Source: Virgisporangium aliadipatigenens
GTDB taxonomy: Bacteria > Actinomycetota > Actinomycetes > Mycobacteriales > Micromonosporaceae
Direction of reading: 5' to 3'
Assembly (NCBI RefSeq): GCF_016863615.1
Contig: NZ_BOPF01000003.1
Location: forward strand, 372,001-436,000
Length of the DNA stretch: 64,000 nucleotides
Positions 9,831-32,201 of the stretch are shown one piece after another. Under the pieces are notes generated by a model that made no database searches, was not told the DNA's origin, and saw only the letters and a list, made by a program, of their open reading frames with translations. Position 1 is the stretch's first letter. Every line of letters starts with the position of its first letter. The position numbers were made by a program, and so were the translations under genes.

Positions 9831-10574
9831 TCAGAGGAGGGCGGCGACCGTCGCCACCGCGCAGGCCACCACCAGCACGCCGAGCGCGAAGCGTTCGTAG
9901 CGGGTCACGTCGAGGCGGTCGTGGACGAGCCGTCCCGCGAAGTACCCGGCTACCACCACGCCGACCAGCAGCGGCCAGTGCGCGGGAACCCGCAACGTGC
10001 CGGCCGCCCAGAGGGTGGCGACGCTCGGGGGTGTTCGGGCCAGGGAGAGGGCGATCAACGTGTCGCGCGTGCGCCGGGGCGGGTAGCCGCGCCCCAGCAG
10101 GTACAGCACGACCGGCGGCCCGCCGAGGGTGGTGGCGGTGCTCAGCGCGCCCGACGAGAGGCCGGCCGACGCCGGGAGCCACCAGCGGTCGGGCAGGTGC
10201 ACCGGGCGTTCGCGGCGGGACATCCACACGCGGTGCGCCACGGCCACGAGCACGGCCCCGGCGACCAGCAGTTGCAGCGCCGTCGCCGGCAACGTCTTCA
10301 GCGCCACCGCGCCGAGCACCAGCCCCGGCAGGCTCCACAGCCCGATGACGAGAACGTCGCGCCAGACCGGTTGCGGCCTACGGCGTTCGGCCACCATGAC
10401 GAGGATGTCGACGACCGTGCCGGTGGCGACGATCGTGCTCACGGCGGCCTGCGGCCCGATCAGCGCGGCGAGCACCGGTGCGCTCAGCATCGCGAAGCCG
10501 AACCCGGTCGACGAGTGCAGCGACGCGCTGAGGAGGAGCGCCGCCGCGACCACGAGCAGTTCCCACAGCGGCAA
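9831..10574 (-). CDS. TauE/SafE-family membrane transporter
   Basis: This is a 247-residue polytopic protein of the sulfite/organosulfonate exporter family (DUF81). Two homologous sets of helices are seen, each beginning with the family's Gly/Ser-rich turn: STGFGFAMLSAPVLA (about residue 22) and SGALSTATTLGGPPVVLYLL (about residue 130). About eight helices in all. TTG 10574 is taken as the start because GGGGGG lies just upstream and because a farther GTG (10664) would overlap the divergent PAP2-like gene. The transported substrate is unknown. It stands alone, divergent from the PAP2-like gene. Confidence 0.82.
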   Translation of the reverse strand: MPLWELLVVAAALLLSASLHSSTGFGFAMLSAPVLAALIGPQAAVSTIVATGTVVDILVMVAERRRPQPVWRDVLVIGLWSLPGLVLGAVALKTLPATALQLLVAGAVLVAVAHRVWMSRRERPVHLPDRWWLPASAGLSSGALSTATTLGGPPVVLYLLGRGYPPRRTRDTLIALSLARTPPSVATLWAAGTLRVPAHWPLLVGVVVAGYFAGRLVHDRLDVTRYERFALGVLVVACAVATVAALL

Positions 10575-10624
10575 CCCGGACCCCCCGATCCCCTGCGCTG
10601 AACGCGGTGCGGCAGCATCGACGG

Positions 10625-11236
10625 GTGTCCACCGCGATCGATGCTGCGCCGCCCACCCTCGCACAGCGCCTGGCGCGGCTCGTCACGGAGGTGTTCGCGC
10701 CGGCGATCTGGGCGGCGGCGATGCCGTTCGTCATGGCGGTGCACGGGGCGTCGAGCGTGCTGGCCGGGGTGGCGTGGGGCGCGTTCGCCGTGGTCTTCAC
10801 GGCGGCGGTGCCCTACGCGATCATCTGGTTCGGGGTGCGCCGGGGGACGCTGACGGACCATCACATCGGGCAGCGCGAGCAGCGCCGCAAGCCGCTGCTG
10901 ATGGGACTGGCGGTGGTGCTGCTGGGGATCGCGGCGCTGGTGGTGCTGCGGGCGCCGCGCGAGCTGATCGCCATGGTGGTGGTGATGTTCGTGGTCGGGC
11001 TCGGCGCCACCGCCGTCAATCACTACTGGAAGCTCAGCATCCACGCGGCCGTCGCGTCGGGTTCGGTGGCGGCGCTGGTGCTGGCGTTCGGGCCGGTATG
11101 GCTGGCCGGGGCGGTGCTGGTGGCGCTGGTCGGATGGTCCCGGGTGGTGCTGCGGGACCACACGACCGCGCAGGTGCTGGTGGGGGCGGTAGCGGGCGCG
11201 GTTTCGGCGGGGCCGACGTTCGCGCTGATGGTCTAG
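10625..11236 (+). CDS. PAP2-like (phosphatidic acid phosphatase-type) membrane protein
   Basis: This 203-residue protein has about five transmembrane helices. Two conserved loops resemble the PAP2 phosphatase signature: KLSIHAAVASG (SxHA, about residue 142) and WSRVVLRDHTTAQV (SR...DHT, about residue 175), with an upstream basic stretch REQRRKP. These residues would bind and hydrolyse a lipid or polyprenyl phosphate at the membrane face. GTG 10625 is preferred; GTG 10607 would add six residues. The last 80 bp are partly duplicated 6.2 kb downstream (17392-17474), which suggests this gene's 3' end marks the edge of an inserted segment. Confidence 0.75.
   Translation: MSTAIDAAPPTLAQRLARLVTEVFAPAIWAAAMPFVMAVHGASSVLAGVAWGAFAVVFTAAVPYAIIWFGVRRGTLTDHHIGQREQRRKPLLMGLAVVLLGIAALVVLRAPRELIAMVVVMFVVGLGATAVNHYWKLSIHAAVASGSVAALVLAFGPVWLAGAVLVALVGWSRVVLRDHTTAQVLVGAVAGAVSAGPTFALMV
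11154..11232 (+). repeat. Direct repeat, left copy (3' end of PAP2-like gene)
   Basis: Bases 11154-11178 are identical to 17392-17416 (25 bp), and 11213-11232 are identical to 17451-17470 (20 bp). The 34-bp stretch between them has the same length but diverged sequence. Both copies read in the same frame. The two copies bracket the anomalous 11.2-17.4 kb segment. Confidence 0.8.
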
Positions 11237-11873
11237 GAAACGTCGGTGACGGAGTGTCGCTTGCCGGCGGCTCACCGCTCGATGATCTGTGCTGCCGACG
11301 GTTCCAAGAGGCTCAGTTGATCAGTGACTGGGAGTATGGATGCGCCGTTGGAGGCACATGAGCCGCGACGTAGCCCGCACGCTCACCTGTCGGGGTGGCT
11401 CTCGACCCGGCGCGCTTAGTCTCCGGTCCGGGGAAGCGATCCGTGATCCAGCCGGCGACGCCCTCATCGGCCACCACTGCTGGCGCGGCGCTGGCTGGTC
11501 TCCTCGACGAAACCATCTGGACCGTCTGGGCTCAGCCGCACCTCTGGGACCCCTGGGCCGAGCGGCCCTGGAACGCTCCGTGTCCGCGACACCGCACGAC
11601 CCCATCTTCGAATGACATGCTGGACGTTCCGCAGCGCCGCCAGCCGTGAATTACATCCCGGATCGCGGCTCGACCCATCCATACTTCCGGTACGGCCTTC
11701 GTCTCGCGTAATCTCATCTTTAGGAACGCAAGGAAGTTTCACCTTGTGGCTTCATGGGGATGCAATTAGGTTCGGATCTTTCGCCAGCCTCAAGGTGCCA
11801 TTAAAATGTGTTCTCCCAACTCGTCCGCAACGGACCCTTCCCTAGGGTTGTGTCGGCGATTGGAGATCTGCAA
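11237..11873. other. Gene-free stretch at left side of anomalous segment
   Basis: No convincing gene is seen in these 637 bp. Short open frames exist (for example 11395-11649 forward) but lack codon bias, a recognisable domain or a good start. Composition shifts from the usual GC-rich DNA to clearly AT-richer sequence after about 11690. It may be decayed coding DNA. Confidence 0.6.
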
Positions 11874-12434
11874 ATGAATGTTAAACGCATTCACAAGTTC
11901 CGTGCATGGTTTTCGTCCCTCGAGGACGGTAGTAAGATTGCCGCGTGCGCCGTCGCGGCAACGGTAGTAGCGGCATTGGTTACCGGATCTGCAGTAATAG
12001 CGGCCCCCATTTTGAGTTCTATGTTTTCCGCCGCCGGGCATCGTGTGTCTCCGCCCGGGCAGCACTCGCCTTCGGGGGAAGACGTCTCGCCCGGATCGTT
12101 ACTACCTCCACAGTTTATCGACTCCGGCATGGGCGCCATTGACCTTGACGGTGGCGGGAAGGTGGATTTGGCACTCAAATTTATTGACAAATCTTGGCGA
12201 CTGACGCGTTCCGGAACCGCATTAGTTGCCGTTACCTCGGCGGCAACTAGGACTGCTTGCATCAACTCATCAAATGATTGGGGATTCACTTTGCCGCCCG
12301 AAGTAAAACATGCGTGCATCAGGACGACAGAATGTGCATATATTGCACTGGCGGTCGATCAAAGCGGATTCGATCAAAAGCTATGGACGGTTACGTTTCG
12401 ACGAAGTCAGACGTGGCAGCAAAGCGAATGCTAA
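11874..12434 (+). CDS. Hypothetical membrane-anchored secreted-domain protein, AT-rich gene
   Basis: This 186-residue protein is not recognised. It has a basic N-terminus (MNVKRIHKFRAWF), one transmembrane helix around residues 24-48 (ACAVAATVVAALVTGSAVIA), a Pro/Ser-rich linker and a C-terminal domain with four cysteines (TACINSS, KHACIRTTECAY, and the final residue), consistent with disulfides outside the membrane. ATG 11874 is preferred over an in-frame ATG at 11808, because the charged-then-hydrophobic anchor begins directly after it. The coding DNA is visibly AT-richer than its flanks, with codons such as TTA, AAA and ATA that are rare elsewhere in the window. This points to recent acquisition. 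Confidence 0.6.
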   Translation: MNVKRIHKFRAWFSSLEDGSKIAACAVAATVVAALVTGSAVIAAPILSSMFSAAGHRVSPPGQHSPSGEDVSPGSLLPPQFIDSGMGAIDLDGGGKVDLALKFIDKSWRLTRSGTALVAVTSAATRTACINSSNDWGFTLPPEVKHACIRTTECAYIALAVDQSGFDQKLWTVTFRRSQTWQQSEC

Positions 12435-12779
12435 ATCGCGGTGCGTTTGTAAGGGGTGATCCATAAAGATTCTCGCAATCAGGCTGCACTTGACCAACGC
12501 GCTCTTGGCGCGAGCGGAAGATCAACGGCACCGCCGTCGGCCACGTTCCGTAGCTCCGGGCCGATACGCGAACGTCCGGACGGCGGCATGAGCGCTCACC
12601 TGATCTTGGTCGGGATCTGGTAACGGCTGAGTCGGGTGGCATGGGTGCCAGCAGGACCGCAGGGCCAGTCCTTCAGTGATGAGCTGACCGCCGGGTGCAG
12701 CGATCGAGTTTCCAAATTCGGCGGCTCGCCACGCCAAGGCAGTTCAGAATGATACGAACGCGGCTGAGGGGGGTGTGAG
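12435..12779. other. Gene-free stretch
   Basis: These 345 bp separate two unrecognised genes. Reverse-strand frames (12522-12737) are open but show no known motif. No hairpin terminator or tRNA was found. The sequence looks like decayed coding DNA. Confidence 0.5.
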
Positions 12780-13256
12780 ATGTCGGAAGTTTCGTTTCAG
12801 ACGGTTCCTGTGCCGGACCGATATGTGCTCCGAGTCTACTCGTGCATTACAGAATGGACTGCCGAAGATCAGGCTGTGGCCGACGGGGAGGTAGGGGCTG
12901 CCGGTGACGATGAAGTTTCGCTAGACCCGTACGAGGAATCATGGTCACTTCCGGAGCCAGAAATCTGGTCGGCGAAGGATCTCAAATCCCTGTCCCAGGA
13001 TTCGGTGAAGACGGCGCGAATAGTTACTAAGATGCTCGATTTTCTCGCTACCAAGCCTGAGACGTTTCTTCGGTCCGATATCATCGGCAGGGAGATCAAC
13101 GTAAAGGCTGAGAGTGTCACCGCCGCCTTGCGCTGGCTCAACCGGTATTTCGGGTCACGGTACGGACGAACTGACCGACCCTTCACGGAGATGTACGGCG
13201 AGTATGGCGTCACGGTCGCACAGGCCAAGGCGTGGACCGACGTGCGCCAGAACTGA
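12780..13256 (+). CDS. Hypothetical protein with C-terminal winged-helix-like domain
   Basis: This 158-residue protein starts at ATG 12780 after a strong GGGGGG-type ribosome site. The first half is acidic and probably flexible (DGEVGAAGDDEVSLDPYEES). From about residue 75 (SVKTARIVTKMLDFLATKPE) a compact helical domain follows the pattern of a winged helix: SDIIGREINVKAESVTAALR as the helix-turn-helix, then WLNRYF. It resembles the small DUF6416-type wHTH proteins of actinomycetes, but I am not certain of that family. A DNA-binding or protein-binding adaptor is the most likely role. It lies in the anomalous segment. Confidence 0.6.
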   Translation: MSEVSFQTVPVPDRYVLRVYSCITEWTAEDQAVADGEVGAAGDDEVSLDPYEESWSLPEPEIWSAKDLKSLSQDSVKTARIVTKMLDFLATKPETFLRSDIIGREINVKAESVTAALRWLNRYFGSRYGRTDRPFTEMYGEYGVTVAQAKAWTDVRQN

Positions 13257-13871
13257 TTCGGCAGGTCCGTGCACTCGGTGCGAACTGATGGTCGGATCTG
13301 GGTATCTCGGGTGCGTGCGTGACTAGATCGAGACCGGAGTCTCGCTCTTGGGGTTCGTCGTTGTTGTCGGCGTCGTACACATCGTCCGGTTGAAGGGCTA
13401 CCGCCTGTTCGAGCTCAGCCGATTGAGCCCGGACAGGCGATCTCATCTGACCGATCGACGTGATGGGCGCCGGGCTGGCGCTACCGAGCGTCATCGGCCG
13501 GCGGACGTCGTTACCGACGGGATGGGCCGCGGTGCGCACACGAGGTTCTCGCCGTCCTGCTTCGCCACGATGCTCAAGGTGCCGGACCCGGCCGCGCAGA
13601 TTGCGGAGACATCGACATCCACGCGACATTCCCAGCGTGCCGTGTACGCACCAATTTCGGCAGATACGTGTACCCAGGCGCCCGAATGGCGTCGTGATCG
13701 CTTGTACACAGCGTGAGGCCCGCTCGTGGCGTCTCCCGCCTTTGCGGACGCCGTCTGAGTGGAGTCACGGTGCCCGAGTCCGCCACGTAACGGTCCTGCC
13801 GCTGCTCTGCGGCAAACTGCCTGAGCTCCCCACCGCGATGGCGGCGGCACCGGAACCGGAAGGACGCTCGG
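13257..13871. other. Gene-poor stretch
   Basis: No gene with convincing coding character is seen in these 615 bp. The forward frame 13348-13716 and the reverse frame 13491-13850 are open but have no recognisable domain and no ribosome site. This is likely remnant DNA within the decaying segment. Confidence 0.5.
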
Positions 13872-14927
13872 ATGAGGGTGGATGAGGCACGGACGCTGTG
13901 GAACGCGCAGCCGGGCTGGCTGAACACGGCGAGCTATGGGCTACCACCGCAACCGGCGTGGGATGCGCTGCAGGCGGCCCTCGCCGACTGGCGGGTCGGC
14001 GCCACGAGTTGGGAGGGCTGGGACGAGGCGACGGCCGCCGCGCGCGCCGGGTTCGCGCGGCTGATCGGGGTGCCGCACGCCGATGTCGCCGTCGGCTCGC
14101 AGGTGTCGCAGCTCATCGCGCCGGTCGCCGGCGCCCTCCCGGACGGCAGTCGAGTGGTGGTGCCGGCCGCCGAGTTCACGTCGATCCTGTTTCCGTGGCT
14201 GGTGCACAGTGACCGGCTCCAGGTCATGACCGTGCCGACCGGCGAGCTCGTGGAGACGGTGGCGGCCGGCTGCGACGTCGTCGCGTTCTCACTCGTCCAA
14301 TCGGCGAGCGGGGAGGTCGCCCGCTACGCCGAGGTCGTCGCGGCCGCGCGCTCGGCCGGTGCCATGGTGGTCGTCGACGCCTCGCAGGCGTGTGGATGGC
14401 TGCCGTTCGACGGCGGGATGGCAGACGTGGTGGTGGTCGCCGGATACAAGTGGCTGATGAATCCGCGAGGCACCGCGTACGCGTACCTGAGCCCCGCGGT
14501 ACGTGAACGGCTGCGGCCGATCGCCGCGGGTTGGTACGCCGGAGCCGACGTGCACGCCTCCTTCTACGGCCCGCGCATGCAGTTGGCCGAGGACGCCCGG
14601 CGCTTCGACGTGTCGCCGGCGTGGTTCAGCTGGGTCGGCGCGGCACCCGCGATCGCCCTCCTCGAGCGGATCGGGCTGCCGGCGATCCACCGCCACAATG
14701 TCGCGCTCGCGAACCGGTTCCTGCGCGGCCTGGGCCACCCGCCCGGCGACAGCGCGATCGTGACGGTCGACGCGCCCGACGCCGCGACCCGGCTCGCCCA
14801 GGCCGGGATCCGAGCCGCGGTCCGCGCCGGCCGGGTACGCGCGTCCTTCCACCTCTACACCACCGAAGCGGACGTCGACCTGGCGCTGGACGCGTTGAAC
14901 GGCCGATCAACGACGGGAACAGCCTGA
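13872..14927 (+). CDS. Class V aminotransferase-fold PLP enzyme
   Basis: This 351-residue pyridoxal-phosphate enzyme is of the aminotransferase class V/cysteine-desulfurase fold. The N-terminal segment WLNTASYGLPP and WEGWDEATAAARAGFARLIG are typical. The PLP-phosphate region is VGSQVSQLIAPVAGAL, the Asp that pairs with the pyridine nitrogen lies in VVVDASQACGWLP, and the Schiff-base lysine is in VAGYKWLMNPRG (about residue 197). The C-terminal small domain ends with ASFHLYTTEADVDLALDAL. Members act as desulfurases, lyases or epimerases; the substrate cannot be read. GC content and codon use are normal, unlike some neighbours in this segment. It starts at ATG 13872 with GGAAGGA upstream. Confidence 0.85.
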   Translation: MRVDEARTLWNAQPGWLNTASYGLPPQPAWDALQAALADWRVGATSWEGWDEATAAARAGFARLIGVPHADVAVGSQVSQLIAPVAGALPDGSRVVVPAAEFTSILFPWLVHSDRLQVMTVPTGELVETVAAGCDVVAFSLVQSASGEVARYAEVVAAARSAGAMVVVDASQACGWLPFDGGMADVVVVAGYKWLMNPRGTAYAYLSPAVRERLRPIAAGWYAGADVHASFYGPRMQLAEDARRFDVSPAWFSWVGAAPAIALLERIGLPAIHRHNVALANRFLRGLGHPPGDSAIVTVDAPDAATRLAQAGIRAAVRAGRVRASFHLYTTEADVDLALDALNGRSTTGTA

Positions 14928-15183
14928 CCGCGCCTGCGGCTGCCGATCACGACCGAGAACCGGTGACACCATCCGCTGGACCGAATCCGACAATCTGCTC
15001 CGGGAAGTCGTGGACGTTTCCTGAGACGCTCCCCGCCGCCGTTGTCCTACGTGCGAGCCGCTTGGTTGACGCGCGGCGGCGGTGACCGTGGCAGCGTCAG
15101 GCCACTAACCGTGAGATTTGTGAGCACCGCCTTGGCGTGTGTACGACGGTCACCGAACGCGTCATGGGGGAGGGCGCGCCACG

Positions 15184-15845
15184 GTGGTTGAGGCAGGGCC
15201 GTTCCTGCCAGAAGCGGCGCGGCGGTATCCGCACGACTACGCGCTGGTCGATGTGGAGACAACCGGCCTGAATCCGGACCAGGACCGGATCATCCAGATC
15301 GCGATCGCCCATGTCGGCTCCCACGGCGTCCTACAGCGAACCTGGTCCACGCTCGTCAATCCGGGATGCGAGCCGGGCCCGGTGCACATCCACGGACTCA
15401 CTGCACAACATCTGGCGGAAGCCCCGCCGTATGTGTCCGTTGCCGACGACCTGGGCCGGCTCCTCGACGGCCGGGTCCTGGTCGCGCACAACGCAACCTT
15501 CGACTGGCGGTTCCTGGCCGCCGAAGCACTCCGGGCCAACCACGAACTTCCGGTGTCCCGCCGGCTGTGCACAATCGCCCTCACCCGACACCTGGACCTA
15601 CCAGTCTGAAATCCTGCTCCGATTGCTGAACGCCGCCGAGCAGGTTGAGCTCGCGTTGCCGCTGATCTCCTGCGATCCGGCCGACGCCCGACGCGCCTAC
15701 CCGGGTACGCACCCCGCGCCCCCTCTGCGCGTGGGCGTACCCGGGGAGATGGATTCCGGGAAACCCGCTCGTGCAAGGGATGAAGGTCGCCATCACCGGC
15801 GACACCATTCTGGCCCGGGAAGTCCTATCGACCCGAGCCGCAGAC
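15184..15845 (+). pseudogene. Decayed exonuclease (DEDDh)-BRCT gene, paralogue of 30399-32201
   Basis: The first 142 codons (GTG 15184 to TGA 15609) read cleanly as a DnaQ-like 3'-5' exonuclease: YALVDVETTGLNPDQDRI with the metal-binding D-x-E, WSTLVNPGCEPGPVHIHGLT, and VLVAHNATFDWRFLAAEA. They closely match the start of the intact gene at 30399-32201. The frame then stops after LDLPV, at the point where about 30 codons of the intact gene (including the catalytic HDAEDD) are missing. Homology resumes in another frame (AEQVELALPLISCDPAD) and shifts again (PLCAWAYPGRW, then PLVQGMKVAITG, the start of the first BRCT domain) until about 15845. With a deletion and two frameshifts this is a dead gene, although a truncated exonuclease fragment could still be translated. 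Confidence 0.85.
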
Positions 15846-16348
15846 CCTCGCCATCTCCTACGGCGTCTCGGTCGACGACTAGCATGCGGGGCCGTACGGG
15901 CGCTGCGTCACCGGCGACAACGTTACGTTCCTCTAGGACGCCGGAGACCCTGGGGCTCCGGGATGCTTGCACTCGGCGACGGCGGTGTCGACATGGATGC
16001 GCTCACCGAGCCCGGCTTCACGCAGGCCACTGCTCCCGCAGAGTCGCCCCAGGCGTCAACGGTCATCTCGACGGTCGCGCCGGATCCGACCGAGACTCTG
16101 GTGGCGACCCGGGATGTGCCGATCCGCCTCGAGGAACGTCCGCCGATGCCACGGTCAACAGCGAAAAGGAGCCGGCGGACCGTGCGTTAACTATCCTCGA
16201 CCAGCACCTTCTCATCGAACGTGAGGTTGTTCGGAGGCACTGCTCGGGACGCGAGCAACACGCCGCCGCAGACCCCTATCGGCATCTCGCCGGCAACAGG
16301 ATTCCGTTCACCAGTACCTATCCGAGCTGATAGCCGCAGGAGCATTGA

Positions 16349-17206
16349 GTGGAATACTCGATCTCGTCCAAGCGGTTTCGGGACGAACTGCCCGACACCG
16401 CCGACGAACTTTTCTGGATCTTGTTCTACCTGGAGCCGAGAAAGAATCCTGTAGTGACGATCAGCGCTACTCGGGACGCCGACCGTTTCATCCGGGTCGC
16501 CGCCGGAGATGGCGGGCTGCTGAGCGTCACGTACCGGCACGGGACACCCGACGAGGTTCACACCGTCTCGGGCCTGGACGTACTGGCTGTCCACCAGGCG
16601 ATCGTTGCGTGCGTGCAGCGGGGCATGCAGTGGACAGCGGCTTTCGAGGAGGCGCAACGACGCGGTGACATGCGGTCGGGTGTCGTCGACTACGAGCCGA
16701 CGGGTCTCACCGTTCAGGCCGCCGTGATGGACCTCGACGTGCGTCGGCGTCGCCTGGGCCTGCCCTTCGCCGGGCCGCCGAGCCTTACCTGGGGTTCTTC
16801 GCAGGTCGTCACCGGAGACGTATGGCCACAGGCCAAGTCCACCGTGACGGTTTCGATCGAGGTCACCGCCATGAGGCGCGAGCTTGAACACGGTATCTCG
16901 ATCGCCTCGCCGGGCGGCAGTGTCCGCACAGAACGATCGCAGCCCGCCGCGGCTGAACTGATGCTGTGGCCGTCGCATGACGGTGAGAAGTTCGAAGTCG
17001 TCTGCGACGTGCCGCAAGCAGCTCTCCAGATCACCAACGTCTACATGTTCCGGACACCGACGCACTCGCGTGTGGAGCGCTGGAGTGACAACGCCGGCAT
17101 CGTGGTCGAGAGTGTGAGCGCGGCCGAGCGCATCTACCGTTGTAATCACGGCTTCACCTCACCGCCGACCTTCAACGATCTCGTCTTTCGCGCGAGAGTG
17201 GACTGA
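16349..17206 (+). CDS. Hypothetical protein, 285 residues
   Basis: Not recognised. GTG 16349 follows a GCAGGAG ribosome site. The protein looks soluble: an N-terminal alpha/beta region of about 110 residues (VEYSISSKRFRDELPDTADE, then VTISATRDADRFIRVAAGDG), a linker near residue 115, and a second mostly beta domain of about 150 residues with several Trp and two Cys (FEVVCDVPQ, YRCNHGF). No signal peptide or membrane helix is evident. It lies beside the decayed exonuclease gene at the right side of the anomalous segment. It could be an immunity-type or accessory protein, but nothing in the sequence proves it. Confidence 0.55.
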   Translation: MEYSISSKRFRDELPDTADELFWILFYLEPRKNPVVTISATRDADRFIRVAAGDGGLLSVTYRHGTPDEVHTVSGLDVLAVHQAIVACVQRGMQWTAAFEEAQRRGDMRSGVVDYEPTGLTVQAAVMDLDVRRRRLGLPFAGPPSLTWGSSQVVTGDVWPQAKSTVTVSIEVTAMRRELEHGISIASPGGSVRTERSQPAAAELMLWPSHDGEKFEVVCDVPQAALQITNVYMFRTPTHSRVERWSDNAGIVVESVSAAERIYRCNHGFTSPPTFNDLVFRARVD

Positions 17207-17375
17207 CGTCTCGTTGATCCGCTCCGCACGGCGTCGGATCGGCCTGATGGGGCCGGTTACGCAAGTGGGACGCGACTCGGCTCACCGCACGACACCGCCG
17301 TAGTTCGGCTCCTCGAACGGCAAAAACCGCTGAAGATGCAACTGCGCCGCCACGGTCACGGTGTCCCGAACCCCC

Positions 17376-17474
17376 GACCGGTTCTTCGCCGGGGACCACA
17401 CGACCGCGCAGGTGCTCGCCCCCACGCTCGCCGGTGCGGTGCTGGCCGCACCGACGTTCGCGCTGATGGTGTGA
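17376..17474 (+). pseudogene. Broken 3' end of a second PAP2-like gene (right copy of direct repeat)
   Basis: Reading from 17376 the frame gives DRFFAGDHTTAQVL...GAVLAAPTFALMV and stop, collinear with SRVVLRDHTTAQVL...GAVSAGPTFALMV at the end of the PAP2-like gene at 10625-11236. Two blocks (25 and 20 bp) are identical in DNA. Nothing upstream of 17376 matches the rest of that gene, so only the last helix and stop remain. It is either a relic of a tandem paralogue or a duplicated target site. Confidence 0.75.
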
Positions 17475-17477
17475 GAC

Positions 17478-18497
17478 CTAGGAAAGACGGCGCCGGACGA
17501 GGTGGACGGTGCCGGCTACGAGGGCGACCGCGAGCACGAGGAAGATCCCGGCCTCGATCAGTTGGAACGTCGTGAAGCGCCCGGACGGCTGATACGTCCA
17601 CAGGTTGTATCCGCCCTCGGCGGTACACCCGCCGCCACGACCGCCCTGGGCGGCACCCGGGGGAGGGGAGGCGTCGGCACCGGGCGGCGGCCGCAGGCAG
17701 AACGCGGTGCCGTTCGGCTCCTTCACCGAGCCGTCCGCGTTGTGCACGGCGGTGTCGATGACCCAGTCCCGCTTGGCCGGGTTGGGCAGCATCGGCTCGC
17801 TGGTGGTGGTCGCCACGCGGTACTCCTTCGGAGCCATCACGTTGGGCCGCACCAGGAACTCGACGACGCCCCGCACCGCGAGGAACGCCACGAACGTCGC
17901 GCCCATCGCCGGCAGCACCTTGCGCGTGACGACCCCCGCGAACGCCCCGAGCGCCACCGCGAACAGCGTGTACGCCACCGGTACCACGCCGAGCTGGTCG
18001 AAGATGAGGTAGTCCATCGGCACCACGAGCGTGCGGGTGAGCGGCCAGAGCCACCAGTTCGTCAGCAGCGCGTAGCCGGTCGCGAGCAGCAGCACGCCCC
18101 CGCCGACGAGCCCGACCTTCACGAGGAACCAGCGGGTGCGGCTGACGTCCTGGGTCCAGACGAGCCGGTGGGTGCCCTGCTCGACCTCGCGGGCCACGAC
18201 CGGCGCGCCCCAGAACATCCCCGCGAGCAGCGGCAGGAACATCAGCAGCACGCCGCCGTACGCCCAGGTCTCGTACCCGTCCGCGAACCTCTCGACGGTG
18301 CTGTTGCACTCCTGCGCGGCGCGGAACGCGACGAGCTGCGCGCCGCCCAACGCGTCGAGGCAGCCCCTGGCGCCCGAGGAGGCGAACACGTCGCGCATCC
18401 GGTTGCCCGTCGGGATGAGAACGGCGGCCAGCACGGCCAGTCCGGCGAGGCCGAAGAGGGCCTGCTTGCGGTGCTGTCGCCAGGTCAGCCAGATCAT
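17478..18497 (-). CDS. ABC transporter permease (ABC-2 type)
   Basis: This is a 339-residue membrane subunit of an ABC exporter. It begins MIWLTWRQHRKQALFGLAGL, the common N-terminus of YtrC/YtrD-like actinobacterial permeases, and has six or seven helices: residues about 17-35, 100-120, 150-170 (VGLVGGGVLLLATGYALL), 190-215 and 225-245, plus the C-terminal IEAGIFLVLAVALVAGTVHL. A large extracytoplasmic loop of about 80 residues, Pro/Gly-rich with paired cysteines, lies before the last helix. The ATG at 18497 overlaps the ATPase stop (ATGA), so the two are translationally coupled. The cargo is unknown; in this group it is often a peptide or cell-wall-active drug. Confidence 0.88.
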   Translation of the reverse strand: MIWLTWRQHRKQALFGLAGLAVLAAVLIPTGNRMRDVFASSGARGCLDALGGAQLVAFRAAQECNSTVERFADGYETWAYGGVLLMFLPLLAGMFWGAPVVAREVEQGTHRLVWTQDVSRTRWFLVKVGLVGGGVLLLATGYALLTNWWLWPLTRTLVVPMDYLIFDQLGVVPVAYTLFAVALGAFAGVVTRKVLPAMGATFVAFLAVRGVVEFLVRPNVMAPKEYRVATTTSEPMLPNPAKRDWVIDTAVHNADGSVKEPNGTAFCLRPPPGADASPPPGAAQGGRGGGCTAEGGYNLWTYQPSGRFTTFQLIEAGIFLVLAVALVAGTVHLVRRRLS

Positions 18498-19417
18498 GCC
18501 GAGCCTCCCACCCGGTGCAGGTTCCGGGGGCCGGGGAGTGTGCCGGCCCCGGCGTCGGCGAGGTACGCGAGAATGATGTCCTCCAACGACACGTCGCTGA
18601 CCGTCCACTGTGGATCCGGCCAGCCGGGTGCGGGCGCGCTGTCGTCGGTGCGCACGAGCAGGGTGGTCTGGCGTTCGGTGTGGCTCTGGCGCACCACCGC
18701 GGCGACGCCGTTGATGCTGCCGGCGTCCCGGGTCCACAGTGGACCGGTGAGGAGCCGGTGCTGGGCGACGAGTTCGTCCACGCCGCCGAGCACCTGGACC
18801 CGCCCGGCCTGCAGCAGGACGAGGTAGTCGCAGACCCGTTCGAGGTCGCCGAGCAGGTGCGAGGAGAGCAGGATGGTGGTCCCCTCGTCGGCGACCCCGC
18901 CCATGAGCGCCTGCAGGAACTCCCGGCGCGCCAGTGGGTCCAGGCTCGCGACCGGTTCGTCGAGGAGCAGGAGCCGGGGCCGTTTGGCGAGGGCCAGCGC
19001 GAGGGCCACCTGTGCGCGTTGGCCGCCGGAGAGGGCGGGCACGGGGCGGTCGACGGCGACGTTGAGGCCGTTCAGCCGTTCGAGCATCAGCGCCCGGTCG
19101 AACCGGCGGTTGAGCTTCGTGCCGAGGGTGGCCAGTTCGGTGGCGGAGAAGTCGGGGTAGAGCGGCGTGTCCTGGGCGACGAACCCGACGTCGCCGCGCA
19201 CCTTCGGGTCGCCGGGTGTGGCACCGAAGACCGAGACTGTGCCGCTGCTCGGCCCGAGGAGTCCGACCGCCAGGTGCAGCAGGGTGCTCTTGCCGGCGCC
19301 GTTGGGTCCGACGAGCGCGGCGATGCGCCCGGCGGGCAGGTGCAGCGTGCAGTCCTTCAGTGCCCAGTGTTTTCCGTAGCGCCGGCCGAGCCCGGTCGCC
19401 TCGAGTGCGGCGGTCAC
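18494..19417 (-). CDS. ABC transporter ATP-binding protein
   Basis: This 307-residue cytoplasmic ATPase energises the permease encoded by the next gene. Walker A is GPNGAGKST (about residue 37), the signature LSGGQRAQVALALALA (about residue 128), Walker B RLLLLDEPVASLDP, and the switch His LLSSHLL. A C-terminal extension of about 90 residues after VLGGVDELVAQHR is characteristic of drug/antimicrobial-peptide resistance exporters. GTG 19417 overlaps the GntR stop by 4 bp. Two copies of TCCAC(A/T)GTGGA (18604, 18733) lie in the 3' part and are read in the frame that gives WT rather than STV. Confidence 0.92.
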   Translation of the reverse strand: MTAALEATGLGRRYGKHWALKDCTLHLPAGRIAALVGPNGAGKSTLLHLAVGLLGPSSGTVSVFGATPGDPKVRGDVGFVAQDTPLYPDFSATELATLGTKLNRRFDRALMLERLNGLNVAVDRPVPALSGGQRAQVALALALAKRPRLLLLDEPVASLDPLARREFLQALMGGVADEGTTILLSSHLLGDLERVCDYLVLLQAGRVQVLGGVDELVAQHRLLTGPLWTRDAGSINGVAAVVRQSHTERQTTLLVRTDDSAPAPGWPDPQWTVSDVSLEDIILAYLADAGAGTLPGPRNLHRVGGSA

Positions 19418-19824
19418 GCTATCTCTCCCTTCGCTGCGTCGTCCTGAAATGTGGCGCGCATGGTCGTCTCGACCAGTGCCACCACGTCCTCCCGTTCGAG
19501 GCCGGCCTTGCGTGCCTTGCGTAGCCAGGCCTCCAGGTCGCGGCGCAGGGCGGCGTGGTTGGCCAGCGCCGGTCCGGCGAGGGTGCGGCGTACGAACGTG
19601 CCGACGCCCGGCCGGCCCTCGACCAGCCCTTCGATCTCCAACTGCCGGTAGGCCTTCAACACCGTGTTGGGGTTGATGGCCAGCGACTCGGAGACCTCGC
19701 GCACCTTGGGCAGTTGGTCGCCCGGGGTGAGCAGGCCGGTCCGCAGGGCCTGCCGCACCTGCTGAACGAGCTGGAGATAGGTGGCGCCCTTGGTATGGCC
19801 GTCCAGATGGAACTCGATCATCAC
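19414..19824 (-). CDS. GntR-family regulator, YtrA subfamily
   Basis: This 136-residue repressor has an N-terminal GntR winged helix: YLQLVQQVRQALRTGLLTPGD, then LPKVREVSESLAINPNTVLKAY and the wing EGLVEGRPGVGTFV (residues about 14-80). Only a short dimerisation tail follows, which defines the YtrA subfamily. Such proteins autoregulate GntR-ABC operons that respond to cell-envelope antibiotics. It is the first gene of a tightly overlapping three-gene operon with the ATPase and permease. ATG 19824 is used; the next codon is also ATG. Confidence 0.92.
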   Translation of the reverse strand: MMIEFHLDGHTKGATYLQLVQQVRQALRTGLLTPGDQLPKVREVSESLAINPNTVLKAYRQLEIEGLVEGRPGVGTFVRRTLAGPALANHAALRRDLEAWLRKARKAGLEREDVVALVETTMRATFQDDAAKGEIA

Positions 19825-19837
19825 CCCACCAAACTGC

Positions 19838-19869
19838 TTAACTATTTATCTACGATAGTAAGACAATAG
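19838..19869. promoter_or_regulatory. YtrA-type operator/promoter
   Basis: A strikingly AT-rich patch in GC-rich DNA lies 14-45 bp upstream of gntR. It holds ACTAT (19841-19845) inverted to ATAGT (19855-19859), a TATC-TAC-GATA core (19847-19857), and a further half-site AATAG (19865-19869). This matches the kind of palindrome bound by YtrA-type repressors and probably overlaps the operon promoter. Confidence 0.65.
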
Positions 19870-19893
19870 CAGTGCTGCGCGATCATGGGAAAC

Positions 19894-20370
19894 ATGGAGG
19901 ACCTGACCGTCGTGCGGGGCGACGCGACCAGCCCGCAGGCCAAGGGGCAGAAGATCATCGCCCACGTCTGCAACGACCTCGGCGGCTGGGGCAGGGGCTT
20001 CGTCGTGGCGATCTCCAGGCGCTGGCCCGAGCCGGAACGCGACTACCGCGCCTGGCATCGCGAGCGGGCACACAACGACTTCGGGCTCGGCGCCGTGCGG
20101 CTGGTCCGGGTGCGGCCCGACGTCCGCGTGGCGAACATGATCGGCCAGCGCGGCATCAGGACCGGCAGCAAGGGCCCGCCGATCCGTTACGAGGCGGTGG
20201 AGAAGTGCCTGTGGAGCGTCGGCGACGCGGCCCTGGCCGAGGAGGCGAGCGTGCACATGCCGCGCATCGGCTGCGGGCTGGCCGGCGGCAGGTGGGAGCG
20301 CATCGAGCCGCTGGTGCGGGCCGCCCTGTGTGGGCGCGGCGTCCCGGTGACGGTCTACGACCTCGGCTGA
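19894..20370 (+). CDS. Macro-domain (ADP-ribose-binding) protein
   Basis: This 158-residue single macro domain probably binds or hydrolyses ADP-ribose adducts. The N-terminal strand LTVVRGDATSPQAKGQKIIAHVCND holds the ligand-contacting GDAT and the Asn-Asp. GGWGRGFV is the Gly-rich catalytic loop. The second phosphate loop is VHMPRIGCGLAGGRW (about residue 120). The spacing fits the Appr-1-p processing/Poa1 type. ATG 19894 is preferred since GGGAA lies 4-8 nt upstream; ATG 19885 would add three residues. It is divergent from the GntR operon and 24 bp upstream of the DUF2277 gene. Confidence 0.88.
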   Translation: MEDLTVVRGDATSPQAKGQKIIAHVCNDLGGWGRGFVVAISRRWPEPERDYRAWHRERAHNDFGLGAVRLVRVRPDVRVANMIGQRGIRTGSKGPPIRYEAVEKCLWSVGDAALAEEASVHMPRIGCGLAGGRWERIEPLVRAALCGRGVPVTVYDLG

Positions 20371-29462: not shown

Positions 29463-30409
29463 TGAAGGCGATCACGCAGCGGGTCTACGGCGCGCCGGCC
29501 GACGTGCTGACGTTCGGCGAGGTGCCGACGCCGGTCGCGAAGCCGGGCCAGGTGCTGATCCGGGTGCGCGCCGCCGGGGTCGACGCGGGCGTGTGGCACG
29601 CGGTGCGCGGCGAGGCCTACATCGCGCGGCTCTACTTCGGACTCCCGAGACCCAGGCAGCGCGTGCCGGGGCGGGACATCGCCGGCACCGTGGAGGCCGT
29701 GGGGGAGGGGGTCACCCGGTTCGCGGTCGGCGACGCCGTGTGGGCCGAACACGACGGCGCCTACGCCGAGTACGTCGCCGTGCCGCAGCAGTGGGTCGAG
29801 CCGAAGCCGGCCGGGGCGACGTTCGAGCAGGCGGCCGCGCTCAGCGTTTCGGGCAAGACCGCGCTGCAGGCGATGCGCGACGCCGCGCAGGTCGGCGCCG
29901 GCACGCGGATCCTCATCAACGGCGCGTCCTCGGGCGTCGGCGTCTACGCCGTGCAGGTGGCCAAGGCGTTCGGGGCCGAGGTGACCGGCGTGTGCAGCGG
30001 CCGCAACGCCGCGCTGGTGCGCTCCCTCGGCGCCGACCACGTCGTCGACTACACCGTCGAGGACTTCACGACGAAGAAGTACGACGTGATCTTCGACCTG
30101 ATCGGCAACCGGTCCATTGTGGAGTGTCGCCGGGCGCTGGTGCCCGAGGGGAGGCTGGTACTCGCCTTCGGCGGGGGCGGCAGGTGGTTCGGCCCGGTCG
30201 GCAAGCTCCTCGGCGCGGTCGCCACCGGACGGGCGAAGCCGTTCACCGCCGCGCGCAAGCGGGAGGACTTCGTCGCCCTGCGCCGCATGGTCGAGGACGG
30301 GACGCTCACGCCGGTCATCGACCGGACGTTCGCGCTCCCCGAGGCCGCCGCCGCCATCGCCTACGTCGAGTCCGGCCGGGCCCGCGGCAAGGTCGTTCTC
30401 ACCAACTGA
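29462..30409 (+). CDS. Zinc-independent MDR oxidoreductase (quinone-reductase-like)
   Basis: This is a 315-residue NAD(P)H-dependent medium-chain reductase. The N-terminal GroES-like domain (MKAITQRVYGAPADVLTFGE) lacks zinc cysteines. GRDIAGTVEAVGEGVTRFAVGD is the family core, and the Rossmann motif INGASSGVGVYAVQVAKAFG lies near residue 155. Such enzymes reduce quinones or enones. ATG 29462 overlaps the previous stop (TGATG), completing the three-gene operon. The 3' end overlaps the convergent exonuclease-TerD gene by 11 bp. An electrophile-response role fits the regulator-led operon, as inference. Confidence 0.9.
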   Translation: MKAITQRVYGAPADVLTFGEVPTPVAKPGQVLIRVRAAGVDAGVWHAVRGEAYIARLYFGLPRPRQRVPGRDIAGTVEAVGEGVTRFAVGDAVWAEHDGAYAEYVAVPQQWVEPKPAGATFEQAAALSVSGKTALQAMRDAAQVGAGTRILINGASSGVGVYAVQVAKAFGAEVTGVCSGRNAALVRSLGADHVVDYTVEDFTTKKYDVIFDLIGNRSIVECRRALVPEGRLVLAFGGGGRWFGPVGKLLGAVATGRAKPFTAARKREDFVALRRMVEDGTLTPVIDRTFALPEAAAAIAYVESGRARGKVVLTN

Positions 30410-32201
30410 TTCCGTGGAACGCCATGAGCCCCTCCGCACCGTCGACGAACCCGCGCCCCACGGCCCGGAAGCGCCACAGCGCACCCCGCCGGTCCACGTG
30501 CGCGAGCAGCACCCCACGCCCGGGCGGGACGGCGTCCAGCGTCGCCCGGGCGCGCACCGCACCGGCGTCGTCCCGCACCACCACCTCGATCGGGCCGGAC
30601 TCGCCCTCCGGCCGCACGGCGGCGATCGCCACGCGTGACACGTCCGGCGGCATCCGGCCGGGGCGCAGCTCCACGAGCACCTCGTGCGGGGTGTCCCGGG
30701 TCAGTTCGACCGCGCCGTCGGCGGCGGCGGGCGCGTGGCGGTGCACGAAATCCGCGTCGGCGCGCACCTGATCCTCGGTGTCCGCCAGGAACGCCAGCAC
30801 GTCCACAGTGGACCCGTCCGGACCCCGCACCGAGACCGTCCACTGCGGGCATTCCGGTGTCAGGTCCGCCTCGGCGCCCCGGGTCAGCACCACCGCCTCC
30901 CCACCCGGGCGCGCCGCATCGTCCCCGGCCCACGGCGCCGTGGCGTCGTCGGCCACGGGCGCCGGGGTGGCGGGGGCGTGCGGCGGTTGCGTGGGGCCGG
31001 TGCGGGCGGGGTCGCGGTGCCGGGGCGCCAGGGTGAGCGGGTCGCACCCGTGCAGGCCCAGGGCTTGCAGGCGCGGCCACCGGGCGTCGTCCTCGGCGCC
31101 GGGCAGCGCGACCAGGTGCGTGACCCGCGCGGTGACGTCGACGGCGGCGATCCCGCCCAGCGTTCCGATGCGGGCCCGGACCTCGGCGGCCTCGGCCGCG
31201 CTCCCGCCGACGACCAGATAGCAGCGGCCGGCCAGCGGTCCGGGCGGCGCGACGCGCGGCGGCTCCACCGGCGGCGCCTGCCGCGGCACCCCGGCCGCCA
31301 CGTCACCCAGCAGCGCCGCGAACTCCGCCTCGCTCACGACCGCCGTGCCGAAGCGCGCCGCGGCGCGCCGCTTCACGGTCGCCTCCCCGCCGTCGTCCGG
31401 TGCCGCGCCGGTGGCGGTGGGCGCCGGAAGGTCGGTGACGAGCAGGCTGGTGCGGCCGCTGACGGCGTTCATGACGTCGAGGCCGGCCCGTGCGGCGCGG
31501 GCCATCAGCAGCTCCCGGGGCTCGGCGCCCGGACCGGTGAACGCCACCTTCATCCCCTGCACCAGCGGCTGCCCCGCGCTCCAGCGGCCGGGGTACGCCC
31601 ACGGGCACAGCGGGCGCGGCGCGCGGGCCGGGTAGACGACCGGCTCGTCGTGCGGATCGCACGGGGTCAACGGAAGGCGCACCGCCAGCCGTCGCGCCGC
31701 GGCCAGGCTGTGCACCAGGATCTCGGCGAGCACGCGGGTGTCGTCCTCCGCGTCGTGCGGGCGGGACTGCGCCACGCCCCAGTGCGCGGCGAGCGAGGCC
31801 AACGACAGGCTCGGCACCGGCAGGTCCAGCCGGCGGGTGAGGGCCAGGGTGCAGAGGCGTTCGGTCACCGGCAGCGGGTGCAGTGCGCGCCGCGCCTCGG
31901 CCGCGAGGAACCGCCAGTCGAACCTCGCGTTGTGCGCGACGAGAACGCGCCCCTCCAGCAGTTCCGCCAAATGGTGGACGACCGACGGGAAGAGCGGGGC
32001 ACCGGCGAGCCGCTCGCGCGACAACCCGTGGATGTGCACCGGTCCCGGATCGATGCCCGGGTCGAGCAGCGTCGACCAGGAACGCCCCGGCGAACCGTCG
32101 GCCTCCAGCTGGATCACCGCGATCTGCAGCACCCGGTCGGCGGACGGCCGCAACCCGGTCGTCTCCACGTCCACGACCGCATACCGCCTCCGCGCGCCCA
32201 T
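30399..32201 (-). CDS. Exonuclease (DEDDh)-BRCT-BRCT-TerD fusion protein
   Basis: This 600-residue multidomain protein has, in order: a DnaQ-type 3'-5' exonuclease (residues about 7-175) with YAVVDVETTGL, HNARFDWRFLAAEA and the final catalytic pair in SRPHDAEDDTRVLAE; one BRCT-like domain (about 215-300, GMKVAFTGPGAEPRELL, then VSGRTSLLVTD); a second (about 320-400, GRCYLVVGGSAAEAAEV, then VTHLVALPG); a Pro/Ala linker; and a C-terminal TerD-like domain (about 445-598) with VLTRGAEADLT, VDVLAFLAD, DADFVHRHAP and ALWRFRAVGRGF. Exonuclease-BRCT pairing points to DNA repair; TerD domains mark tellurite/phage-stress systems. ATG 32201. A decayed paralogue lies at 15184-15845. Confidence 0.85.
   Translation of the reverse strand: MGARRRYAVVDVETTGLRPSADRVLQIAVIQLEADGSPGRSWSTLLDPGIDPGPVHIHGLSRERLAGAPLFPSVVHHLAELLEGRVLVAHNARFDWRFLAAEARRALHPLPVTERLCTLALTRRLDLPVPSLSLASLAAHWGVAQSRPHDAEDDTRVLAEILVHSLAAARRLAVRLPLTPCDPHDEPVVYPARAPRPLCPWAYPGRWSAGQPLVQGMKVAFTGPGAEPRELLMARAARAGLDVMNAVSGRTSLLVTDLPAPTATGAAPDDGGEATVKRRAAARFGTAVVSEAEFAALLGDVAAGVPRQAPPVEPPRVAPPGPLAGRCYLVVGGSAAEAAEVRARIGTLGGIAAVDVTARVTHLVALPGAEDDARWPRLQALGLHGCDPLTLAPRHRDPARTGPTQPPHAPATPAPVADDATAPWAGDDAARPGGEAVVLTRGAEADLTPECPQWTVSVRGPDGSTVDVLAFLADTEDQVRADADFVHRHAPAAADGAVELTRDTPHEVLVELRPGRMPPDVSRVAIAAVRPEGESGPIEVVVRDDAGAVRARATLDAVPPGRGVLLAHVDRRGALWRFRAVGRGFVDGAEGLMAFHGISW

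Follow-up and report, generated by a model that had tools for sequence, protein, structure and literature searches.

Genomic islands at tRNA genes have been found by the signature of a gene that is split and restored, the island bringing the replacement end (Islander, PMC4383910). Bacterial genome comparisons have also described short and highly diverged in-frame blocks, found preferentially in genes for membrane proteins, whose discussed origins include mutation showers and homeologous recombination (PMC2884548). Here, both descriptions are compared with a duplicated gene end in Virgisporangium. The DNA analyzed, referred to as the window, comprises 64 kb from an assembly of 10.3 Mb (contig 3, bases 372001–436000), and all positions are given within it. 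An intact gene encoding a PAP2-like membrane phosphatase of 203 amino acids (10625–11236, + strand, GTG start) ends in a sequence that recurs about 6.2 kb away. This gene-end duplication is real, and the locus as a whole most likely arose when DNA was inserted or rearranged at the end of a gene by recombination long ago, an ordinary event that gives no sign of any new system.

The left copy (11154–11240, +) is 87 bp long and consists of an identical block of 25 bp, a diverged center of 34 bp, an identical block of 20 bp, and the octamer CTAGGAAA. The right copy (17392–17485, +) is 94 bp long and consists of the counterpart of these three blocks, a 7-bp insertion, and the same octamer; its positions 17392–17475 form an orphan PAP2 3′ end (reading GDHTTAQVLAPTLAGAVLAAPTFALMV and then a stop) with no 5′ part of the gene. 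Positions 11154–11232 and 17392–17470 were aligned on the same strand and in the same reading frame with 62 of 79 bases identical, and the whole repeat had an E value of 1.3e-11 in the genome. The mismatches were distributed as 0 of 25, 17 of 34, and 0 of 20 across the repeat, all of them falling in the center. The 25-mer was found at these two places only in the window, with 0.00 occurrences expected from shuffles. The orientation, frame, and block coordinates given in the initial annotation therefore hold. The repeat is longer than the 80 bp given there, as it passes the PAP2 stop into CTAGGAAA.

On the left, the octamer directly follows the 20-bp block (11233–11240), and CTAG gives the PAP2 stop codon. 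On the right, it follows the block after GTGAGAC (17478–17485) and covers the final bases, stop codon included, of a convergent ATP-binding cassette (ABC) permease gene. Only these two occurrences were found in the 64 kb on both strands, where 0.08 were expected. Since CTAGGAAA takes in the PAP2 stop on the left and the permease stop on the right, the shared sequence corresponds to the junction of two convergent gene ends, and since the octamer is unique to these two places, both copies carry this PAP2–permease junction.

The first identical block encodes, with GC-rich codons, the conserved motif RDHTTAQV; a 23-bp exact match to it was found in Paractinoplanes (L030), whose protein is just 53% identical. 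The 25-bp block alone is therefore no proof of a recent copy. In the second block, the runs shared between the intact gene and any relative were 9 bp or shorter. The two copies matched each other at 62 of 81 positions, compared with at most 57 and 55 for either copy against any relative. Because the second block is not conserved and the mutual identity exceeds that to any relative, the two copies are specifically related to each other.

The right copy begins abruptly. In an alignment of 54 relatives, about ten rows of which are duplicate entries of the same gene, the residues ahead of DHT were W[SA]Rxxx in all 54, and the C-terminal SRxxx(R/G)DHTxxQ motif of the left gene (SRVVLRDHTTAQ) matched these relatives. 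The right copy reads VSRTPDRFFAGDHT, and the W[SA]Rxxx motif is absent at the proper distance. The similarity to the left copy upstream of 17392 (CCCG.../SR) was not significant (p = 0.65). When the six frames of 11237–20236 were searched with an unfiltered profile, the last 27 residues of PAP2 were recovered and no other piece, in agreement with the earlier statement that nothing else of the gene is present, and a second full gene thus need not be assumed. Against the family profile, the right remnant scored 23.4 bits and the corresponding part of the intact gene 29.5 bits.

The mosaic of identical and diverged blocks, which the initial annotation had called odd, proved to be so. When the 17 mismatches were placed at random, the two longest identical runs totaled at least 45 bp in a fraction of 5e-5 of the trials, and none of 44 pairs of relatives with similar identity reached this total (maximum 35). 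Third codon positions account for nine of the 17 differences, and no stop interrupts the reading frame. The divergence of the center does not look like the neutral drift of a dead copy. As a separate observation, CGCCCCCACG at 17417–17426 of the right copy is the reverse complement of GGTGGGGGCG at 11179–11188 of the left copy at 9 of 10 bases. A micro-inversion of 17417–17426 was considered and dropped, as 20 of 300 unrelated PAP2 pairs (about 7%) showed a gain at least as large.

The repeat has the features by which loci of homeologous microdiversity are defined in the literature, a definition that applies between strains (PMC2884548). It shares with them a short in-frame diverged block, near-identical flanks, and both synonymous and non-synonymous changes, and PAP2, as a membrane protein, belongs to the class of genes in which they are enriched. 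In contrast, those loci differ between strains at one position, whereas two copies within one genome are compared here, and 34 bp is low in their range of 20–500 bp. The mosaic is the sole unusual feature of the locus, and it has described parallels in similar diverged blocks of E. coli.

Regarding the origin of the duplicate, we give roughly even chances to an insertion of DNA by recombination at the PAP2–permease junction that left the gene-end duplicate behind. For this reading, we infer a single ancestral PAP2 gene and an insertion event, together with its direction and mechanism. The ancestral site would have been a compact convergent pair of PAP2 and the ABC permease gene, with stop codons that adjoined or overlapped. 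Recombination would then have joined about 6.1 kb of DNA from mixed sources to the PAP2 3′ end, leaving a complete PAP2 gene on the left and stranding its last ~84 bp and the junction against the permease on the right. Given that the differences are clustered and keep the reading frame, the incoming DNA most likely carried a diverged PAP2 3′ end of its own and used the short stretches of identity for recombination, much as islands do at the ends of tRNA genes; alternatively, one block may have been replaced later. Duplication by a simple staggered cut is the less probable mechanism. Afterward, the cargo would have lost any recombinase and decayed in part.

The layout speaks for insertion, with a fragment of the PAP2 3′ end lying displaced behind the intact gene and oriented like it. 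A single insertion event would account for the foreign cargo, the octamer in both copies, the abrupt beginning of the right one, and the position of the stranded end at 2 bp from the permease. The permease stop within the duplicate, the abrupt start, the lack of a second PAP2 remnant in the profile search, and the foreign cargo shift some weight to insertion. The two explanations offered initially, an insertion or the scar of a tandem PAP2 pair, are still the two leading ones, but the target duplication of a classical transposon is unlikely, because the copies are 22% different with the differences clustered and in frame, and no recombinase was found. Nor does the repeat resemble the short identical direct repeats that bound a transposon exactly: its copies are 87 and 94 bp long, with a 7-bp gap and a 22% difference in the gene part, and no transposase gene was found in the interval.

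The locus resembles islands at tRNA genes in having a complete gene, cargo, and a displaced 3′ fragment in the same orientation, with a spacing within their range of 2–200 kb (PMC4383910). It differs from them in that the target is a protein gene, no integrase was found, and the displaced fragment is 22% different. By analogy, the locus may have formed in a similar manner. A target with its displaced fragment and foreign cargo are both present, and since the integrase gene is not, the locus cannot be filed as an integrase-mediated island. Homology-facilitated illegitimate recombination is similar in that foreign DNA is joined via short identity without a dedicated recombinase, which would fit the lack of an integrase here, and it differs in having been shown in naturally competent species (PMC2884548).

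Several results weigh against the insertion. Copies that were identical at insertion and drifted afterward should show scattered mismatches, and clustering was found instead (p = 5e-5). Past CTAGGAAA, the likeness of the left side to the permease end is weak (p = 0.02–0.03 over 40 bp) and fades with length. A six-frame Pfam scan of 11237–17391, with stops read through, found no integrase, transposase, relaxase, replication, or plasmid genes, which also upholds the earlier remark that no integrase is seen. The cargo does not occur elsewhere as a single unit; none of the loci retrieved for comparison contained more than one of its genes, and the interval is therefore a patchwork rather than a recognizable element. 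Moreover, an empty site, namely a PAP2–permease junction without the island, was not seen in the genomes examined via orthologues of the permease, PAP2, or the TauE/SafE-family gene to its left.

The comparison within the genus was made with two genus-mates, both distant (permease 49–51% identical), the operon comparison with nine fetched loci carrying the GntR-ATPase-permease genes, and the PAP2 comparison with 35 other PAP2 loci. The operon is widespread in the family, and PAP2 was beside it in none of the nine operon loci. In the two genus-mates, the neighborhood of the operon is different from that described here and syntenic between themselves. No locus examined has a PAP2–permease junction, with or without an island. 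A 3′-end repeat of comparable score was found in none of the 35 PAP2 loci, the best other score being 42 compared with 73; this hit, in L043, was dismissed because it reads as a compositional, GC-rich similarity. In both genus-mates (L091, 8991–9935; L092, 9391–10341), an unrelated gene is convergent with the same ABC permease gene and ends near its end, so that, within the genus, a convergent gene adjoins the end of the permease gene in at least two different arrangements.

The duplicate may instead have arisen by decay of a tandem paralogue, a possibility that we consider somewhat less likely than insertion. PAP2 and its downstream edge would have been duplicated, and the second copy would have diverged while still working and then lost its first ~530 bp, either on arrival of the intervening genes or through deletion of the region. 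Such decay yields a neighboring gene's truncated copy in the same orientation, and the in-frame differences without a stop, the 9 of 17 at third positions, and the 23.4-bit remnant look as if both copies had once been under selection. This coding-like divergence is better explained by paralogue decay than by insertion. Another partial paralogue, a broken exonuclease gene, lies in the same stretch, and the genome carries one further full PAP2 paralogue elsewhere (G000:C4). On the other hand, both a duplication and a deletion are needed, and the 5′ part of the second gene has left no trace in any frame. Perfect synonymous identity at both ends around a diverged center is also atypical of diverged homologues, with no match among the 44 relative pairs of similar identity. 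In decayed tandem paralogues, remnants of the other gene parts usually persist and the differences are usually scattered, neither of which is seen here, and none of the fetched relative loci has two PAP2 genes close together.

It is improbable, in our judgment, that the locus is the remnant of a site-specific integrative element whose attachment site was the conserved PAP2 motif and whose integrase has since been lost. The 25-bp identical block has the size of a core site, which was counted in favor of this explanation, and the anatomy fits that of islands restoring a split gene (PMC4383910). However, no integrase, excisionase, relaxase, or replication gene was found in any frame, the 35 other PAP2 loci yielded no comparable repeat, a crude motif scan of these loci showed no recombinase beside the PAP2 genes, and identity beyond the core is unexpected. 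It would be more surprising still if the 3′-terminal motif of PAP2 served as the integration site for an undescribed class of elements that bring along a PAP2 end as replacement and need no recognizable recombinase of their own; if this were true, the diverged center with its identical flanks would record a recombination event anchored at two short sites. Finally, chance or codon bias, by which the right copy would only look duplicated, being either unrelated DNA or a common conserved motif, is hardly credible. The 25-bp block with its GC-rich conserved codons and its counterpart in another genus would fit such an origin, but the second block, unconserved in the family, refutes it as a full account, and CTAGGAAA following in both copies and the E value of the whole repeat also speak against it.

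The interval between the copies was initially described as AT-richer and poor in genes, and the proposed check of G + C content and codon bias bore this out. The G + C content falls to 0.54–0.60 at 11.5–13.4 kb, compared with 0.70–0.75 in the flanks, and the codon usage of the first two genes, orfA and orfB, is strongly deviant. The G + C content at third codon positions (GC3) was 0.53 for orfA, 0.66 for orfB, and 0.78 for orfC, compared with 0.87–0.97 for the flanking genes. orfA (11808–12434, +; likely start 11877) is an AT-rich near-orphan with an N-terminal hydrophobic segment and the most deviant codon usage; only marginal fragments of it were found in other genomes, and there was no match in plasmids. 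orfB (12780–13256, +) is an AT-rich orphan for which searches of 150 genomes of the family and 396 of the phylum, as well as of plasmids and phages, gave no other match. orfC (16349–17206, +) is an open gene for a putative protein that was found in four scattered family genomes and had no match in plasmids. Its very weak match to the TY-Chap C-terminal profile (Pfam Chap-C, E = 0.077) and its weak match to AbiEi (PADLOC, E = 0.0019) were taken as noise, as was a marginal, low-scoring viral Pfam family in a stop-containing frame of the interval.

The only significant six-frame Pfam matches in the interval were an aminotransferase and an exonuclease. The former gene (13872–14927, +; PF00266, E = 4e-23) is predicted to encode a class-V aminotransferase or cysteine-desulfurase-like protein, and its composition is native-looking. 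It is 77% identical to a homologue from another genus (G153) and 66–67% identical to those of both genus-mates, and in a tree of 14 rows, in which hidden paralogy is possible, it formed a clade with that other genus (g29; support 99/97) apart from the genus-mates. The aminotransferase gene is therefore a probable xenologue. The exonuclease match (15139–15800, +; PF00929, E = 1.2e-15) is a broken gene copy that covers the N-terminal part of a DEDDh exonuclease, with 67–74% DNA identity to 31534–32183 in two segments. The intact relative at 30399–32201 (−) encodes 600 amino acids with the DEDDh exonuclease as its N-terminal part; its long C-terminal part appears TerD-like by eye alone. The description of the island as decaying is apt for the broken exonuclease and the stretches without genes, but it does not suit the aminotransferase gene and orfA–orfC, whose frames are open. 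Judging from the codon usage of orfA and orfB, their near-orphan status, and the aminotransferase tree, the cargo looks to be of foreign or mixed origin. A PHROGs search for phage remains gave exonuclease and aminotransferase matches only, no RNA family was matched at E values up to 1, and no tRNA target was found within the window.

Between orfA and orfB, the stretch 12503–12588 recurs elsewhere in the genome at G000:C19:4287–4373 (−) and G000:C47:55550–55609 (+), with 82% identity over 86 bp and 79% over 60 bp; it had no Rfam match and is possibly a dispersed intergenic element. Directly after it, at 12583–12613, lies the motif GGCATGAGCGCNNACCTGATCTTG, for which near-exact matches of 22–31 bp were found in three other family genomes (L142:1501–1531, L147:1501–1532, and L148:1501–1522). 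One exact form of the motif was not found in viral contigs.

To the right of the island, the PAP2 remnant is followed at a distance of 2 bp by the convergent ABC-2 type permease gene (17478–18497, −), which has weak ABC2 Pfam hits and orthologues across the family. The ABC transporter ATPase gene (18494–19417, −; PF00005, E = 1.6e-27) is syntenic with the permease and GntR genes family-wide. The putative GntR-family regulator gene (19414–19824, −) has a helix-turn-helix-like N-terminus and bears the family label of the initial annotation; its orthologues in the family are about 69–82% identical and always adjoin the ATPase gene. To the left, the intact PAP2 gene (PF01569) scored 25.6 bits, slightly under the cutoff of 27.2. 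It is divergent from the TauE/SafE-family permease gene (9831–10664, −; PF01925, E = 4.8e-29), which has native codon usage and a single good orthologue, in one genus-mate, next to other genes.

The locus exemplifies gene-end duplications that mark old insertions in actinobacterial chromosomes without an annotatable integrase. The causes of short, highly diverged blocks are an unsettled question, for which homeologous recombination, mutation showers, or selection are candidates, and the mosaic of two copies within one genome provides a small testable case for the origin of such blocks.

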